From positions 204,988 to 244,975 of the forward strand of contig NZ_LN611424.1 in assembly GCF_000821245.2 (NCBI RefSeq): a DNA stretch of 39,988 nucleotides. Reading direction: 5' to 3'. Each line of letters opens with the position of its first letter. The stretch's first letter is position 1. Of the stretch, positions 1-6,864 are shown in pieces. The stretch is from Virgibacillus senegalensis. GTDB lineage: Bacteria > Bacillota > Bacilli > Bacillales > Amphibacillaceae. The position numbers were made by a program, and so were the translations under genes. A model generated the notes under the pieces. It worked only from the letters and a program-made list of their open reading frames with translations, was not told where the DNA came from and ran no database searches.

Positions 1-290
1 TAGACGTCGATCACACTTTCCTGACAGCAGATTCCGTATTGTTCGACGCGGTGTACGCAGCGGGCGGCGAGGAGAACAAAGCCTTTTATAAACAGGCTGC
101 CTACTTCGTTATGGAAGCATTCTCGCATTATAAAACAATTGGAGCTACCCACGAAGGCAGAAAGCTTCTGGAAGCAAATGGAATGGAAGATAGTCCGGGA
201 GTGGTTTCAGGTAAAGATACAACCGGGTTTGCCGAGCGGCTCCGCCAAGCGACCGCAAAACATCGCCATTGGGACAGAGAGATTTTATAA
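1..290 (+). CDS. katE: Large-subunit catalase, C-terminal end (5' part outside window)
   Basis: An open frame enters from the left edge (codon phase from base 3: DVDHTFLTADSVLFDAVYAA) and stops at TAA 288-290. This is the C-terminal flavodoxin/DJ-1-like extension of large clade II catalases, which decompose hydrogen peroxide in the cytosol. The family-typical ending is visible: a DAVYAAGG strand, an IGATHEG segment, NGMEDSPGVV and the terminal HRHWDREIL. The catalytic haem domain lies upstream, outside the window. The first in-frame TTG (39) is not a start, because the family sequence continues upstream of it. A palindromic terminator follows directly. This copy joins the true upstream gene; two further 3' fragments lie at 2441 and 4856. 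One base (G at 170, C in both other copies) marks it. Confidence 0.9.
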   Translation, partial: DVDHTFLTADSVLFDAVYAAGGEENKAFYKQAAYFVMEAFSHYKTIGATHEGRKLLEANGMEDSPGVVSGKDTTGFAERLRQATAKHRHWDREIL

Positions 291-301
291 GGTGACAGCG
301 A

Positions 302-325
302 CCTGGAGGGGAATTCCCCTCCAGG
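302..325. terminator. Bidirectional terminator between katE and transporter 3' ends
   Basis: Perfect palindrome with 10-bp arms (CCTGGAGGGG / CCCCTCCAGG) around AATT, followed by TTAATTAA. It sits between the catalase stop and the convergent transporter stop. The same hairpin recurs at 2717-2740 and 5120-5143. Confidence 0.75.
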
Positions 326-475
326 TTAATTAATGTTGGACAGCTTTGTTTCTGTTTTTTCTTTTCGTGCGGCGCCGCTGTTCAAACTGTGCAGCACCAT
401 CCCGCCAATGACGAGAAATACCCCCAAAAGGGAGAGCGGGCTGGGCATTGCGGCATGAAGAAAGATTATTTCCCC
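326..475 (-). pseudogene. Truncated 3' end of EmrE-type transporter (unit 1)
   Basis: Encodes the last residues of the transporter that is intact at 5144 (GEIIFLHAAMPSPLSLLGVF to the KLSNIN end). At 475/476 the sequence switches to unrelated DNA, so an apparent 70-aa frame (326-538) starts with residues that do not belong to the family. It contains one membrane helix at most and lacks the other helices. It is a relic carried by the repeat unit and I infer it is non-functional. Confidence 0.8.
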
Positions 476-524
476 TTCCGAACGACATAAAAGTGCTTCG
501 TCTACATTAGAACTTTGAATAGTC

Positions 525-620
525 TTAAATAGCCTCAAAAATGTGACCGATCAATCTGCCTATTCCTCTTACTAACCAAACCACCAACCTTCCGGTCAAC
601 ATGAAAATTTCCGGATCCAT
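525..620 (-). CDS. Possible 31-aa amphipathic peptide (unit 1)
   Basis: A minus-strand ATG (618-620) opens 31 codons ending in TAA (525-527). The product begins MDPEIFMLTGRL and ends GRLIGHIFEAI. It alternates hydrophobic residues with Arg/Gly, as an amphipathic helix would. It is the first reading frame beyond the transporter break point and points toward the truncated transporter. No strong ribosome site is visible upstream, and I recognise no family. It could be the C-terminal remnant of a longer decayed gene. It is the kind of peptide gene that ORF finders skip, so I list it with low confidence. Confidence 0.3.
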   Translation of the reverse strand: MDPEIFMLTGRLVVWLVRGIGRLIGHIFEAI

Positions 621-837
621 GTTAATAATTCCCAGACATCGGATTTCTCAAATTTTCTCCTCAATCATTAACCCCTCCGTGCCCTTTTAAACCTTGGTTA
701 ACTAAAGAATGCTCCAAGCATTAAACGTAATAAGGCTATTTAATTCCGATGGTACTTTTGCTCTAAGGACATGAGCAACAGATTCAAATTGGCTGTACGA
801 AAGGTCTTAGGAAACCTGTCATTATGGTCGATCTTAA

Positions 838-1080
838 GAAGAGTTCAATGACAGGCAACGCTTGTATTTAGGAAGATATTTAAAACTATTGGAGGAGCTT
901 CGGATTGCCCGTAAGCTGAATGAGGTATTTCACCGCTAGATTTATGAGAAACGAAAGTTGTGGGACAAACTGGTTACTACGGAGGATCTCCTTCTAATTT
1001 CAAAGGGTCTATCGCCTATAAAAGCTCTTCCTTACCACTTTGCTTCACCTGTAACGTTGGTATATTCAATGTTCGCATAG
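838..1080 (+). pseudogene. Decayed reading frame of unknown family (unit 1)
   Basis: One frame stays protein-like across a single internal TAG (937-939). Before it reads a helical, charged segment (YLKLLEELRIARKLNEVFHR); after it comes IYEKRKLWDKLVTTEDLLL and then a Pro/Ser-rich end, stopping at TAG 1078-1080. There is no credible start and the flanks are broken in all frames. The composition suggests the remnant of a real, probably helical protein, but I recognise no family. Much of 541-1380 appears to be similar decay, with no intact gene. Confidence 0.35.
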
Positions 1081-1384
1081 TAAGTTGTTTTGCGCTTGTG
1101 TATTGCAATGGATCATTAATAGATTAACAACTAAAGGAAAGTTATCAAACGGATCGCCTCGGGTTCCCTGCGATATTTTGTACCTATTCTCTCGGCCAAG
1201 GTCTTACTAGGAAAACCAGATCATCTTCCGAAATGGGAGGCGGTTCGTTTACATTTCCCTATTATTCTTTTATTTGATTCTCTTCTAGTTCATTCAGGCT
1301 TCAGCAATAAGCACTGTTTTAGCATGTGAATAATGTCGATAATTAGATTTTTGTGGGTTTTATTGGTAAATATGGTAGAAACCG

Positions 1385-1413
1385 TTGACACCTATACCTA
1401 AACTAAATAGTAT
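1385..1413 (+). promoter_or_regulatory. SigA-type promoter of the secreted-protein gene (unit 1)
   Basis: Perfect -35 TTGACA (1385-1390), 17-bp spacer, -10 TAGTAT (1408-1413). It lies about 30 bp before the start codon, with an AGGAGG ribosome site between them. A good -35, correct spacing and a strong RBS suggest substantial expression. Confidence 0.65.
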
Positions 1414-1443
1414 TAAGATAAATTTGAGAGAGGAGGAAAATAT

Positions 1444-1848
1444 ATGAAAAAAATGAAGTTTTTATTTACTTTTGCTATAGTACTGGTTAGCTTAATGGGA
1501 TTTAGTACTATAGAAACCAATGCTGCTCCTACTGCTAATGCATCGATTTCCACTTTTGATGCTGGTGGTGATACGGGGGTAAGAGGAAGTGGTGGATTTA
1601 ATGGAGGAAGAGCAGATGAAGTGGATAAAGTCTATTATAGGTTTCAACTATATAGAAATGGCATAGGTAAAGGTAGCAAATCCGGTTACTCTGATTCCTC
1701 TACTTATTCAGCAAGTATAACCAATTATGAATATTCAAACACCGCAGCATTATGGAAAATGGTTTCTTTCGGAACAGCTTATTATAACTATGGTGGAAAT
1801 GATTCCGATCAAGAAAGTGTTGAAAAGTATGTACGTGCATATCACTAA
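1444..1848 (+). CDS. Secreted 134-aa protein, candidate bacteriocin-like toxin (unit 1)
   Basis: ATG 1444 follows GAGAGGAGGAAAATAT. Residues 1-28 form a classical Sec signal peptide: KKMK basic start, hydrophobic core, and a cut probable after ETNA. The roughly 106-residue mature part has no Cys. It is rich in Gly, Ser, Tyr and Asn, with a GSGGFNGG patch, a DKVYYRFQLYRNG segment and a C-terminal TAYYNYGGND motif. It has its own promoter, and a lipoprotein gene lies downstream beyond a hairpin. I cannot assign a family. The second half distantly recalls the YSATVxN...W...YYNF pattern of lactococcin-972-type bacteriocins, but this is weak. A secreted toxin or other small extracellular protein is the inference; an identical copy exists at 3859. 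Confidence 0.75.
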   Translation: MKKMKFLFTFAIVLVSLMGFSTIETNAAPTANASISTFDAGGDTGVRGSGGFNGGRADEVDKVYYRFQLYRNGIGKGSKSGYSDSSTYSASITNYEYSNTAALWKMVSFGTAYYNYGGNDSDQESVEKYVRAYH

Positions 1849-1853
1849 TCACT

Positions 1854-1902
1854 AACTCTTAAATAAGAAGGTAGCCTAAGGCTACCTTCTTATTTAAGAG
1901 TT
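1854..1902. terminator. 49-bp palindrome after the secreted-protein gene (unit 1)
   Basis: A perfect inverted repeat: two 24-bp arms around a single A. The GC core (GAAGGTAGCC / GGCTACCTTC) is flanked by AAATAA on the left and TTATTT on the right, as in a bidirectional intrinsic terminator. It starts 5 bp after the secreted-protein stop and separates it from the lipoprotein gene. Confidence 0.7.
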
Positions 1903-1959
1903 AAATGACAAGGATATCTTAAGTTCTTAATAAAATCGATATACGAGGTGAATAGATAG

Positions 1960-2421
1960 ATGAAAAAATTAGTGTTCATTTTACTAATACTTTTTTATGT
2001 TACGGGTTGTTCCGCCAATTCAATGGAAGTATCAGAAGAAAAAGATGTAGATACCAACGAGATAGATTTTGATATTTATATGTCGATACTAAAAAACGAG
2101 GTAAAATCTGATTTTGAATTAACTAATAATATGAGTTTGAAAGGATATAGTACATTTTTGTATGATGAACTAGAATACGATGAGAAAAGTTTTAATATTT
2201 TATTTGAAGATGGGGAAGAAGGGGATGTAATACCGGTTGCATTTATCGATGGTAATAAGGGGATTTTGGTAAGAAAAAAGTATTATGGTGATAACCAGGT
2301 ATATAATATAAACTTTAATATTAAAAATGATAAGTGGGAAATAATAGATGATGAGATTGTAAAAAGTGACTTGGTGATCACAGAAGATTACTTATTAGCA
2401 CTATATGAAAAGGATTTATAA
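1960..2421 (+). CDS. 153-aa lipoprotein, candidate immunity protein (unit 1)
   Basis: ATG 1960 is preceded by GAGGTGAATAGATAG. The N-terminus is a type II signal peptide ending in the lipobox FYVTGC (Cys17), so the mature protein should be anchored to the outer face of the membrane. The mature part is strongly acidic (EVSEEKDVDTNE, EDGEEGD), with a beta-rich centre (GNKGILVRKKYYGDN) and no recognisable domain. It lies 111 bp after the secreted protein, with the palindromic hairpin between them, so it may depend on readthrough or a weak own promoter. Surface lipoproteins beside secreted peptides often act as immunity factors, and that is my inference here. Base composition is far more AT-rich than in the surrounding housekeeping genes. 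Confidence 0.75.
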   Translation: MKKLVFILLILFYVTGCSANSMEVSEEKDVDTNEIDFDIYMSILKNEVKSDFELTNNMSLKGYSTFLYDELEYDEKSFNILFEDGEEGDVIPVAFIDGNKGILVRKKYYGDNQVYNINFNIKNDKWEIIDDEIVKSDLVITEDYLLALYEKDL

Positions 2422-2440
2422 AAGATAAGTTGCATTTTTA

Positions 2441-2705
2441 AGCAGATTCCGTATTGTTCGACGCGGTGTACGCAGCGGGCGGCGAGGAGAACAAAGCCTT
2501 TTATAAACAGGCTGCCTACTTCGTTATGGAAGCATTCTCGCATTATAAAACAATTGGAGCTACCCACGAAGGCAGAAAGCTTCTCGAAGCAAATGGAATG
2601 GAAGATAGTCCGGGAGTGGTTTCAGGTAAAGATACAACCGGGTTTGCCGAGCGGCTCCGCCAAGCGACCGCAAAACATCGCCATTGGGACAGAGAGATTT
2701 TATAA
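2441..2705 (+). pseudogene. katE 3'-end fragment (between units)
   Basis: Copy of the last roughly 265 bp of the catalase gene, beginning abruptly after the lipoprotein region (TTTTTA joined to AGCAGATTCC). It lacks the catalytic domain and any start signal. The reading frame still matches the first copy to its end. Confidence 0.85.
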
Positions 2706-2716
2706 GGTGACAGCGA

Positions 2717-2740
2717 CCTGGAGGGGAATTCCCCTCCAGG
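2717..2740. terminator. Terminator copy in unit 2
   Basis: Same CCTGGAGGGG-AATT-CCCCTCCAGG palindrome as at 302-325. Confidence 0.65.
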
Positions 2741-2890
2741 TTAATTAATGTTGGACAGCTTTGTTTCTGTTTTTTCTTTTCGTGCGGCGCCGCTGTTCAA
2801 ACTGTGCAGCACCATCCCGCCAATGACGAGAAATACCCCCAAAAGGGAGAGCGGGCTGGGCATTGCGGCATGAAGAAAGATTATTTCCCC
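2741..2890 (-). pseudogene. Truncated 3' end of EmrE-type transporter (unit 2)
   Basis: Second copy of the relic at 326-475, with the same break point (2890/2891) and the same differences from the intact gene at 5144. Confidence 0.8.
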
Positions 2891-2939
2891 TTCCGAACGA
2901 CATAAAAGTGCTTCGTCTACATTAGAACTTTGAATAGTC

Positions 2940-3035
2940 TTAAATAGCCTCAAAAATGTGACCGATCAATCTGCCTATTCCTCTTACTAACCAAACCACC
3001 AACCTTCCGGTCAACATGAAAATTTCCGGATCCAT
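2940..3035 (-). CDS. Possible 31-aa amphipathic peptide (unit 2)
   Basis: Identical second copy of the 31-codon frame at 525-620. Whether it is translated is unknown. Confidence 0.3.
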   Translation of the reverse strand: MDPEIFMLTGRLVVWLVRGIGRLIGHIFEAI

Positions 3036-3252
3036 GTTAATAATTCCCAGACATCGGATTTCTCAAATTTTCTCCTCAATCATTAACCCCTCCGTGCCCT
3101 TTTAAACCTTGGTTAACTAAAGAATGCTCCAAGCATTAAACGTAATAAGGCTATTTAATTCCGATGGTACTTTTGCTCTAAGGACATGAGCAACAGATTC
3201 AAATTGGCTGTACGAAAGGTCTTAGGAAACCTGTCATTATGGTCGATCTTAA

Positions 3253-3495
3253 GAAGAGTTCAATGACAGGCAACGCTTGTATTTAGGAAGATATTTAAAA
3301 CTATTGGAGGAGCTTCGGATTGCCCGTAAGCTGAATGAGGTATTTCACCGCTAGATTTATGAGAAACGAAAGTTGTGGGACAAACTGGTTACTACGGAGG
3401 ATCTCCTTCTAATTTCAAAGGGTCTATCGCCTATAAAAGCTCTTCCTTACCACTTTGCTTCACCTGTAACGTTGGTATATTCAATGTTCGCATAG
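3253..3495 (+). pseudogene. Decayed reading frame of unknown family (unit 2)
   Basis: Second copy of the frame at 838-1080, with the same internal TAG (3352-3354). The decay therefore predates the duplication. Confidence 0.35.
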
Positions 3496-3799
3496 TAAGT
3501 TGTTTTGCGCTTGTGTATTGCAATGGATCATTAATAGATTAACAACTAAAGGAAAGTTATCAAACGGATCGCCTCGGGTTCCCTGCGATATTTTGTACCT
3601 ATTCTCTCGGCCAAGGTCTTACTAGGAAAACCAGATCATCTTCCGAAATGGGAGGCGGTTCGTTTACATTTCCCTATTATTCTTTTATTTGATTCTCTTC
3701 TAGTTCATTCAGGCTTCAGCAATAAGCACTGTTTTAGCATGTGAATAATGTCGATAATTAGATTTTTGTGGGTTTTATTGGTAAATATGGTAGAAACCG

Positions 3800-3828
3800 T
3801 TGACACCTATACCTAAACTAAATAGTAT
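3800..3828 (+). promoter_or_regulatory. SigA-type promoter of the secreted-protein gene (unit 2)
   Basis: Identical copy of the TTGACA-17-TAGTAT promoter at 1385-1413. Confidence 0.65.
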
Positions 3829-3858
3829 TAAGATAAATTTGAGAGAGGAGGAAAATAT

Positions 3859-4263
3859 ATGAAAAAAATGAAGTTTTTATTTACTTTTGCTATAGTACTG
3901 GTTAGCTTAATGGGATTTAGTACTATAGAAACCAATGCTGCTCCTACTGCTAATGCATCGATTTCCACTTTTGATGCTGGTGGTGATACGGGGGTAAGAG
4001 GAAGTGGTGGATTTAATGGAGGAAGAGCAGATGAAGTGGATAAAGTCTATTATAGGTTTCAACTATATAGAAATGGCATAGGTAAAGGTAGCAAATCCGG
4101 TTACTCTGATTCCTCTACTTATTCAGCAAGTATAACCAATTATGAATATTCAAACACCGCAGCATTATGGAAAATGGTTTCTTTCGGAACAGCTTATTAT
4201 AACTATGGTGGAAATGATTCCGATCAAGAAAGTGTTGAAAAGTATGTACGTGCATATCACTAA
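3859..4263 (+). CDS. Secreted 134-aa protein, candidate bacteriocin-like toxin (unit 2)
   Basis: Protein identical to the product of 1444-1848, with the same promoter, ribosome site and downstream hairpin. The signal peptide and mature part are intact, so both copies look expressible. The doubling should raise dosage. The identity of the two copies points to very recent amplification. Function is not recognised. Confidence 0.75.
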   Translation: MKKMKFLFTFAIVLVSLMGFSTIETNAAPTANASISTFDAGGDTGVRGSGGFNGGRADEVDKVYYRFQLYRNGIGKGSKSGYSDSSTYSASITNYEYSNTAALWKMVSFGTAYYNYGGNDSDQESVEKYVRAYH

Positions 4264-4268
4264 TCACT

Positions 4269-4317
4269 AACTCTTAAATAAGAAGGTAGCCTAAGGCTAC
4301 CTTCTTATTTAAGAGTT
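4269..4317. terminator. 49-bp palindrome after the secreted-protein gene (unit 2)
   Basis: Identical copy of the perfect 24-1-24 inverted repeat at 1854-1902. Confidence 0.7.
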
Positions 4318-4374
4318 AAATGACAAGGATATCTTAAGTTCTTAATAAAATCGATATACGAGGTGAATAGATAG

Positions 4375-4836
4375 ATGAAAAAATTAGTGTTCATTTTACT
4401 AATACTTTTTTATGTTACGGGTTGTTCCGCCAATTCAATGGAAGTATCAGAAGAAAAAGATGTAGATACCAACGAGATAGATTTTGATATTTATATGTCG
4501 ATACTAAAAAACGAGGTAAAATCTGATTTTGAATTAACTAATAATATGAGTTTGAAAGGATATAGTACATTTTTGTATGATGAACTAGAATACGATGAGA
4601 AAAGTTTTAATATTTTATTTGAAGATGGGGAAGAAGGGGATGTAATACCGGTTGCATTTATCGATGGTAATAAGGGGATTTTGGTAAGAAAAAAGTATTA
4701 TGGTGATAACCAGGTATATAATATAAACTTTAATATTAAAAATGATAAGTGGGAAATAATAGATGATGAGATTGTAAAAAGTGACTTGGTGATCACAGAA
4801 GATTACTTATTAGCACTATATGAAAAGGATTTATAA
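4375..4836 (+). CDS. 153-aa lipoprotein, candidate immunity protein (unit 2)
   Basis: Protein identical to the product of 1960-2421, with an intact lipobox (VTGC) and ribosome site. It ends 19 bp before the third katE fragment. The same inference applies: a surface lipoprotein possibly paired with the secreted protein upstream. Confidence 0.75.
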   Translation: MKKLVFILLILFYVTGCSANSMEVSEEKDVDTNEIDFDIYMSILKNEVKSDFELTNNMSLKGYSTFLYDELEYDEKSFNILFEDGEEGDVIPVAFIDGNKGILVRKKYYGDNQVYNINFNIKNDKWEIIDDEIVKSDLVITEDYLLALYEKDL

Positions 4837-4855
4837 AAGATAAGTTGCATTTTTA

Positions 4856-5107
4856 AGCAGATTCCGTATTGTTCGACGCGGTGTACGCAGCGGGCGGCGA
4901 GGAGAACAAAGCCTTTTATAAACAGGCTGCCTACTTCGTTATGGAAGCATTCTCGCATTATAAAACAATTGGAGCTACCCACGAAGGCAGAAAGCTTCTC
5001 GAAGCAAATGGAATGGAAGATAGTCCGGGAGTGGTACAACCGGGTTTGCCGAGCGGCTCCGCCAAGCGACCGCAAAACATCGCCATTGGGACAGAGAGAT
5101 TTTATAA
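4856..5107 (+). pseudogene. katE 3'-end fragment with 13-bp deletion (right boundary)
   Basis: Third copy of the catalase tail. A 13-bp deletion after GTGGT (about 5035) shifts the frame, so the HRHWDREIL ending is lost and the frame runs on to 5147. The original stop is at 5105-5107 but out of frame. Its flanking transporter is intact, so this is the side where the chromosome resumes. Confidence 0.85.
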
Positions 5108-5119
5108 GGCTGACAGCGA

Positions 5120-5143
5120 CCTGGAGGGGAATTCCCCTCCAGG
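5120..5143. terminator. Terminator of the intact transporter gene
   Basis: Third copy of the 10-bp-arm palindrome, directly abutting the transporter stop codon (5144-5146) on the minus strand. Confidence 0.7.
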
Positions 5144-6100
5144 TTAATTAATGTTGGACAGCTTTGTTTCTGTTTTTTCTTTTCGTGGGGCGCCGCTGTT
5201 CAAACTGTGCAGCACCATCCCGCCAATGACGAGAAATACCCCCAAAAGGGAGAGCGGACTCGGCATTGCGGCATGAAGGAAGATTATTTCCCCGATCAAG
5301 GCAAAAACCACTTCTCCTGACTGGGTAGCCTCGACACCAGCCAATTTTTGCGTATCGTGCTTAACAAGGTTGGTAGCATAGAAGAACAATCCGGTTGCAA
5401 TCACGCCGGAAGAGACAGCGACAATAAATGTCTGCCCAAGCTGGCTGGAAGAGGGAGCGCCATGTGCGATCGCACCATATACGGACAAAATCAGCCAAAA
5501 CGGCATACTGGCGATGGTCATGCCGAGAATGCGTTGAAAGGTATGGAGGTCACTTCCTACGATTTGCATCATTTTCCGATTTCCTAAAGGATAACTAAAG
5601 GCGGAAATAATTAACGGGATCGTACATAACCAAATACTTGCCAGCGGTACAGATGAAGCATGCTCCATCTGCATGAGGATGACGCCACCTAAAATGATGG
5701 CGGAAATAAACACGCTTTTTAAAGGGATTGATTGTTTTAATTCCTGTTCTTTATTAAGGAATGGGACGAGCAGGGAGCCTGCAATGATCGTCAGTTGAAA
5801 AGTCGCGGCAACGAGCCAGCCCGGACCGTAAACGGTGGCAAAGGCGATTGGTGCATAAAACAAGCCAAATCCGACAGAGCTCCAAACAACCCAGGAAATG
5901 GGATGATTTTTTAAGTGTATCAGCACTGGCTTGATTTTTCTTTGGAAACCAACGATGGCAAGCAGTATGGGCAGCATAAAGAAAAAACGCAAAGAAGCGC
6001 TCCACACCCAGCTACCACCTTCCAGCTCCATCGACCGGTTCAGGATAAAGGTAACAGAAAAAAATAAAGCAGCTAAAAGTCCGATCATCAACACCCGCAT
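5144..6100 (-). CDS. EmrE-type drug/metabolite transporter (DMT superfamily)
   Basis: A 318-aa polytopic membrane protein with about ten helices in two repeats, of the multidrug resistance efflux transporter (EmrE, PF13536) branch of the DMT superfamily. Visible family features are the N-terminal helix with FILNRSMELEGG, a GLFYAPIAFATVYGPGW segment, and a C-terminal repeat with GVEATQSGEVVFALIGEIIF. The ATG at 6098-6100 is chosen because GGAGG lies 8 nt upstream. The longer frame to 6163 has no RBS and adds a non-membrane tail. The substrate is unknown; export of a small molecule is the family role. It converges on katE. Its 3' end is the segment copied into the tandem units. Confidence 0.85.
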   Translation of the reverse strand: MRVLMIGLLAALFFSVTFILNRSMELEGGSWVWSASLRFFFMLPILLAIVGFQRKIKPVLIHLKNHPISWVVWSSVGFGLFYAPIAFATVYGPGWLVAATFQLTIIAGSLLVPFLNKEQELKQSIPLKSVFISAIILGGVILMQMEHASSVPLASIWLCTIPLIISAFSYPLGNRKMMQIVGSDLHTFQRILGMTIASMPFWLILSVYGAIAHGAPSSSQLGQTFIVAVSSGVIATGLFFYATNLVKHDTQKLAGVEATQSGEVVFALIGEIIFLHAAMPSPLSLLGVFLVIGGMVLHSLNSGAPRKEKTETKLSNIN

Positions 6101-6315
6101 GTACATAACCTCCAGTATTTCATTGGATATGCGAACCATTTTACTATAGTTTCGGGTATCCATGTTACTTTCTTTTCACCTATATAGAAGGGGAATGAAA
6201 ATAATCATCGCACTGACGTTTGCACGAGCTTCTGCTTCCGAAAGTCGAAAGGTTTCCTGTAAACAACTGATTTTGTACACTGAGAGAAGACGTGTAAGCA
6301 GGAAAGGATGGTATC

Positions 6316-6864
6316 GTGGAAAAAGGAGTACAGCCAAACTATTTGGAAGTCGTCGAAATCAAAGAGGTCGGAGAGGGAATGCGAGTATGCATTGATTTTA
6401 TCGATGCACTAAAGCTGGACGAAGGACTGTACATCGGCAATACTGGTCATGGCTATTTGAAGGTTCTTTCCGAAAACAGGCAGTCGGAAGGGTATCCTCC
6501 ACGTCCGTTTCGGATCAATGGTGGGGGATTTCATCAGTATGTATACCAGGAAGATGCCAGTAAGTATTTACAGGAAATAGAGTCTGGAGAAGCACTGACT
6601 GTTAGCAGCCGTCAAGAGAACCGGGCCATATCGATCGGCCGCGTGAAAATAGAAAAACGTCCGCTTCTGCGTATTACTTGCCAGCGTGATGGAATGATTG
6701 TATCTGCTACCTTGCAGTCCTCCACCAGTGTTTATGTGGAGGAAGCCGAAAAAGGTGTGGTTTCGGTTAGGAATCTGAAGACGGGAGACAGAATTGCCGG
6801 AAAAATAGATCAGCCGGGAAGACACCTGGGGAAAAAAATCGACGAATTCATAGAGGAACGGTAA
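6316..6864 (+). CDS. Stand-alone C-terminal half of 3-dehydroquinate synthase II
   Basis: A GTG start at 6316 follows AGGAAAGGATGG. The 182-aa product matches only the C-terminal half of the archaeal-type 3-dehydroquinate synthase II family (PF01959, normally about 330-380 aa). Matching segments are GMRVCIDFIDALK, YPPRPFRINGGGFHQYV, ISIGRVKIEKRPLL, LKTGDRI, and the closing GRHLGKKIDEFIEER. The full enzymes convert an ADTH intermediate to dehydroquinate using NAD. The N-terminal half is absent and no remnant of it is visible upstream (6101-6315). It therefore probably does something else, or works with a separate partner. It lies 53 bp before manR on the same strand and may be cotranscribed with it. 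Confidence 0.8.
   Translation: MEKGVQPNYLEVVEIKEVGEGMRVCIDFIDALKLDEGLYIGNTGHGYLKVLSENRQSEGYPPRPFRINGGGFHQYVYQEDASKYLQEIESGEALTVSSRQENRAISIGRVKIEKRPLLRITCQRDGMIVSATLQSSTSVYVEEAEKGVVSVRNLKTGDRIAGKIDQPGRHLGKKIDEFIEER

Follow-up and report, generated by a model that had tools for sequence, protein, structure and literature searches.

Introduction

Unconventional circularizable structures (UCS) are described as segments that carry no genes for recombinases and lie between long direct repeats unrelated to transposition, yielding a circle and an empty site that each retain one repeat (PMC7843796, PMC8401462, PMC9241890). Further accounts present the csa1 lipoprotein array of Staphylococcus aureus as a gene accordion, whose tandem copies expand and contract by host recombination in mixed populations (PMC7360770), and the microcin H47 island as a segment lacking its own recombinase, with extensive imperfect direct repeats and hybrid repeats after excision (PMC3191183). 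Transformation merodiploids carry intact and cassette-bearing copies of a host locus in tandem (PMC3784515). Here, we describe a 2,415-bp unit repeated in tandem between katE and a transporter gene in a stretch of 39,988 nucleotides of Virgibacillus senegalensis (assembly GCF_000821245.2, contig NZ_LN611424.1, positions 204,988 to 244,975), hereafter the window.

We think it rather probable that this unit is a recombinase-free, amplifiable segment driven by host recombination, on the grounds that it has long repeats, that the assembly also contains an empty locus, that the repeated segment exists in four haplotypes, that the relics and the repeats contrast in age, and that another genus provides a second case. 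A preceding reading, made from the sequence alone, had proposed an undescribed mobile module, which was too strong, since the excision of recombinase-free segments via long direct repeats is already known.

Results

The tandem array and the empty locus

The left part of the window contains two direct repeats of 2,415 bp each (26-2440 and 2441-4855), which differ solely at position 170 (G/C), followed by a partial third copy, just as the sequence-only reading had it. Each unit combines a 450-bp shared segment, made of the 3' ends of katE and of the transporter gene and recovered at the length first reported in copies A1 and A2, with a 1,965-bp unique part that is identical in both units (Table 1). 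The third copy of the shared segment (A3, 438 bp) is set apart from A2 by a 13-bp deletion, a 1-bp insertion and four substitutions. This repeat structure far exceeds chance expectation. With gaps counted, the copies of the shared segment are 96 to 99.8% identical, and the unit thus has the extensive direct repeats at both ends that typify UCS; the native and the unit type differ by four or five substitutions and two indels per ~440 bp (96% identity with gaps counted, ~99% by substitutions). Like UCS, the unit also holds no recombinase gene: its two intact genes are without recombinase matches. The statement that no transposase is visible was not quite right, inasmuch as a transposase relic is present; it is broken, matched no profile and presumably derives from the ISL3 family.

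The window is one contig of scaffold C6 (204988-244975), set between single-N joins at C6:204987 and 244976. Beyond the left N lie rlmN (named from our own reading of the protein), the full katE (L006:6662-8788), a fourth copy of the shared segment (A0), the whole transporter gene and 43 bp from the start of the gene that follows; there is no insert, so that A0 stands in an uninterrupted katE-transporter locus of the same assembly. The last 1,503 bp ahead of this N match window 4856-6358 with one mismatch. The left join brings together two overlapping contigs with different alleles, one empty and one with two units. The occurrence of zero and two units within one assembly, with the empty locus carrying a fitting hybrid haplotype beside an N join, suggests that the empty and the amplified states may coexist, perhaps in one culture.

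Four haplotypes of the shared segment

Two sites 36 bp apart, the G/C position and the 13-bp deletion, distinguish the four copies: A0 has G with the deletion, A1 G without it, A2 C without it and A3 C with it. Both katE-side copies (A0 and A1) have G and both insert-side copies (A2 and A3) have C, over 144 identical bp, and the deletion is found in both transporter-side copies (A0 and A3) and in neither insert-side copy (A1 and A2). Two parents and two reciprocal products, as in this set, are expected when an empty chromosome (A0) and a circle or unit (A2) undergo one crossover, or when one collapse takes place. The phase across 36 bp is credible, because data that keep phase across 144 bp should keep it across 36. 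As three related species retain the 13 bp in question, the deletion is the derived state. In A0 it shifts the katE frame, such that approximately the last 27 residues are replaced by ~36 others, while the frame of A1 is unshifted (L006:8497-8788 versus window 26-290).

Old relics between young repeats

Immediately after the shared segment, the unit contains a relic of the rlmN-katE intergenic DNA, which is 79% identical to the genome's own copy, or 80% over 228 columns. Against three species of the same genus the identity is 67-73% over the whole aligned segment and 69-77% in local matches. If the repeats had aged like this relic, the probability of finding as few as 5 substitutions among 437 positions would be 5.9e-35 at 20% divergence and 2.5e-14 at 10%, under the generous assumption that the coding repeat ages as fast as the intergenic relic. 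With so few substitutions in the repeats and a relic diverged by 20-21%, the latest exchange of the repeats must postdate the origin of the relic. Such refreshing would stem either from repeated recombination or from one recent entry. The proposal that the amplification is recent or still under way hence fits the repeats, and does not extend to the non-repeated relic, which is old.

A second case in another genus

Genome G798, from another genus of the family, has relatives of both genes of the unit (53% identity for gene 1; 58 of 146 residues for gene 2) in a stretch without Ns (L107). The order there is intact phnE-, phnC- and phnD-like genes (our own naming), a 193-bp duplicate of the beginning of an ABC transporter gene, a decayed phnC/phnD-like relic, gene 2, gene 1 and the intact ABC transporter gene. 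The 193-bp repeats have 3 mismatches, for which the probability is 5.7e-10 at the 14.4% divergence of the relic and 5e-4 at 7%. The relic consists of pieces 82-87% like the intact phnC/phnD-like genes, with indels; none of the three gene-strand frames is open (23-32 stops each, longest run 90 codons), and its mismatches fall on the three codon positions as 25/17/28 in the phnC-like and 23/23/56 in the phnD-like part. It groups with the genome's own copy (support 0.98), on a longer branch (0.138 versus 0.054). In the window and in G798 alike, repeats that are ~98-99% identical by substitutions thus accompany relics at 79-87%.

The plain gene order without the pair is seen in all three loci examined from the genus of G798 (G289, G116 and G007; a fourth genome, G145, gave a weak match). 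Likewise, the katE locus lacks the insert in three of the four other genomes of the genus of the window, the remaining one (G002) having no match at all. The long-repeat architecture occurs in two of the four loci with both flanks available, namely those of the window genome (G000) and G798, the others being G276 and G224.

The gene pair

The unit carries an unnamed pair of genes, encoding a secreted protein and a lipoprotein. Counting the own genome each time, relatives of gene 1 were found in 2 of 397 genomes of the order with a single protein query and in 2 of 159 genomes of the family with a profile, and relatives of gene 2 in 31 of 398 genomes of the class with a profile. For both genes the nonsynonymous rate (dN) is well below the synonymous rate (dS) between the window and G798 (0.37/1.34 and 0.52/1.82), with dS near saturation; in G135, gene 1 has an internal stop and gene 2 is open. 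Gene 1 had no match among Pfam families at E<=10 or among NCBIfam families at E<=1, and its candidacy as a lactococcin 972-like bacteriocin found no curated-profile match at these thresholds; we take both libraries to include a profile of that kind. The promoter-like site ahead of gene 1 is of a type that occurs 10 times in the region, fewer than in its shuffles (mean 14.8).

Small secreted open reading frames (ORFs) beside the gene 2 relatives of G276 and G224 align to gene 1 at just 18-26%. As they had been included in the family A1 profile, we rechecked them with a clean profile from the window and G798 alone: one of the two G276 ORFs matched at E=1e-5, the other weakly (0.051), and the G224 ORF not at E<=10. 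The clean profile also matches the N-terminal half of three longer proteins, in L077 (4.3e-5), L076 (7.7e-4) and L081 (0.0026; E-values among 381 ORFs), the C-terminal half of which matches gene 2. These domain fusions point to a joint function of the two products. The gene 2-type domain is further joined to DUF3888 in 2 of 10 proteins scanned. The pair might, at a guess, be a bacteriocin-like protein with its protector; a simple toxin-immunity arrangement is rather disfavored, because both domains are sometimes fused in one chain.

As separate observations, ECF-sigma-factor-like and membrane regulator-like genes (judged by eye) lie near gene 2 relatives in two unrelated genomes (L033/L042 of G224 and L040 of G135), and the gene 2-type domain also ends proteins that by eye resemble membrane-anchored anti-sigma factors, in L076 (2442-3062), L077 (1285-1947), L093 and L094. 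Downstream of the array, a 182-aa protein (window 6316-6864) matches the C-terminal half only of 3-dehydroquinate synthase II.

Table 1. Features of the katE-transporter array (positions in the window)
Feature	Position	Strand	Match or basis
3' end of katE (long catalase, C-terminal domain)	1..290	+	Pfam Catalase_C, E=1.1e-16
Direct repeat copy A1: katE 3' end and truncated transporter 3' end; haplotype G/no deletion	26..475		
Sole base differing between units 1 and 2; G in A0 and A1, C in A2 and A3	170..170		
Relic of rlmN-katE intergenic DNA	476..724		Similarity to own copy L006:6144-6406
Decayed relic of a transposase gene; intact, multi-copy transposase genes colinear with it lie elsewhere in the genome	~765..1175	+	
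Promoter-like TTGACA-17-TAGTAT ahead of gene 1	1385..1413	+	Pattern match
Gene 1 (family A1): 134-aa protein, signal peptide by eye, predicted beta-sandwich	1444..1848	+	
51-nt palindrome between genes 1 and 2, perhaps terminator or attenuator	1853..1903		
Gene 2 (family A2): 153-aa lipoprotein, conserved alpha+beta domain (predicted)	1960..2421	+	LPAM_1 lipobox above cut-off
Direct repeat copy A2; haplotype C/no deletion	2441..2890		
Second copy of unique part (relics; genes 1 and 2 at 3859-4263 and 4375-4836)	2891..4855		Identical to 476-2440
Direct repeat copy A3; haplotype C/13-bp deletion; runs into intact transporter gene	4856..5293		
Intact transporter gene	5144..6163	-	Pfam EmrE family (there: putative multidrug efflux transporter), E=3.6e-107

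The N joins of the assembly

We surveyed the 12 N runs that have both flanks in view among 18 stretches covering 300,841 bases of the genome, leaving aside one run cut by the end of a stretch and three short contigs that are entirely N. Repeated flanks occur at all 12, and at 11 of them they extend over at least 76 bp at 98% identity or more. Some of these runs are located within natural repeats, for instance apparent ribosomal RNA, and many of the joins look like overlapping contigs left unmerged. At joins in L048, L054, L056, L057 and L058 of C6, and at the right end of the window, the flanks repeat each other over up to 1,241 identical bp, and apparent duplications of genes near such joins may exist on paper alone. 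At ~1,900-13,800 of L056 (C6:900000-919999), related repeated stretches (78-100% identity) surround two N joins in what resembles a tandem gene array.

Discussion

We posit that the unit would have arisen as a tandem copy of host DNA, reaching from upstream of katE to the end of the transporter gene, the middle of which would have been replaced by a now-dead insertion sequence and the two-gene module. Homologous recombination between the 450-bp repeats, presumably RecA-dependent, could then add or remove units, or else leave an empty site along with a putative 2,415-bp circle able to re-enter by one crossover.

Several explanations compete with this one. In the first, an assembly artefact, exactly one unit lies between two shared segments, the empty and the two-unit paths being wrong walks through a collapsed repeat. 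The draft state of the assembly, with its unmerged overlapping contigs at N joins and the array at a contig end, speaks for such an artefact in number, as does the general difficulty that two identical 1,965-bp stretches would pose to short reads. It would nevertheless require chimeras within 36 bp, although phase held in all four copies, over 144 bp on one side and over ~260 bp on the other, and we therefore regard it as doubtful, if to be taken seriously. The scaffold as written can also be taken at face value, as a larger fixed duplication in which the katE-transporter locus and the array are adjacent in the chromosome and nothing is mobile. That order hinges on a single N with a repeated flank, like those of 11 other N runs (with at least 98% identity in 10 of these), and at its right end the window, too, has an overlap of 1,207 identical bp with the contig that follows, which leaves the duplication quite improbable.

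The remaining alternatives concern how the unit moved. Tandem copies with intact and cassette-bearing alleles are known from transformation (PMC3784515), and the array might have arrived that way, with two crossovers bringing in a linear donor fragment instead of a single one joining a circle. Such a route would need two independent crossovers in one 36-bp interval, while one reciprocal crossover explains both mosaics; we hold it to be improbable. The transposase relic inside the unit could be read as the trace of a dedicated mobile element, with an integrase, transposase or replication protein acting in cis. The relic is broken, though, and beyond genes 1 and 2 the ORFs of the unit are short unassigned frames; moreover, relatives of gene 1 were absent from the plasmids and viral contigs searched, and those of gene 2 from the plasmids, phages and viral contigs searched, which makes a dedicated element very improbable.

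Recombination between host-derived repeats, the reading that we prefer, has several points to reckon with in its turn. Given the position of the array at the end of a contig and the repeated flanks of the N joins in this assembly, the copy number of the array cannot be trusted, and an assembly error might affect even A0 or A2. The Campbell-type integration offered by the sequence-only reading gains support from the mosaic of A0 to A3, the outcome expected if an empty chromosome crosses over once with a circle or array unit; on the other side, a whole-genome search found the insert solely in this array and no separate circular contig. The haplotypes would fit an event in either direction, integration or collapse, and the chance that a single crossover falls in the interval in question is ~8% (35 of 450). 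Part of the divergence of the G798 relic may predate its decay, given the third-position excess in the phnD-like part. Finally, the G276 and G224 loci, with gene 2 and a small secreted neighbor, are without such long repeats.

A bolder possibility, which we consider rather unlikely, is a distinct class of small parasites that have no recombination gene and carry the gene pair as their cargo; they would repeatedly settle next to an intact host locus as a partial copy of it, persist as an old unit with host-refreshed repeats, and move or multiply as a non-replicating circle that re-enters by homology. Under this reading, excision and re-entry would also toggle the end of katE between two forms. 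More generally, long near-identical host-gene repeats around an old decayed relic and a cargo provide a searchable signature, and the contrast in age tells a recombination-maintained unit from a one-off duplication without the need for reads. The analysis also brings to light a secreted-protein/lipoprotein pair, the domains of which are sometimes fused into one protein.

Set against the systems introduced at the outset, as far as the cited portions describe them, the unit shares features with each. Transformation merodiploids measure ~100 to 900 kb and form at repeats elsewhere in the chromosome, whereas the unit of the array is 2.4 kb long; transformation-made tandem copies might, by analogy, be one known way for the module to have first entered the host locus (PMC3784515). 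The unit resembles the microcin H47 island in being recombinase-free and in having direct repeats that include hybrids; in contrast, the island is 13 kb in size and its exchange was seen also in a background deficient in homologous recombination, while the 2.4-kb unit is in tandem and its mechanism is proposed from sequence. With csa1 it has in common near-identical tandem units bearing genes of surface or secreted type, but the csa1 array is held to be driven by the likeness of the genes themselves, whereas here the repeat is a separate piece of neighboring host genes, and an ordinary, complete locus forms the empty site. The parallel with UCS is a segment that has no recombinase genes and is enclosed by long direct repeats; the circles of UCS compare with a unit known from assembled sequence alone, and where the cargo of UCS consists of antibiotic resistance genes, that of the window is a secreted protein/lipoprotein pair, its repeats are pieces of the flanking host genes and its units stand in tandem.

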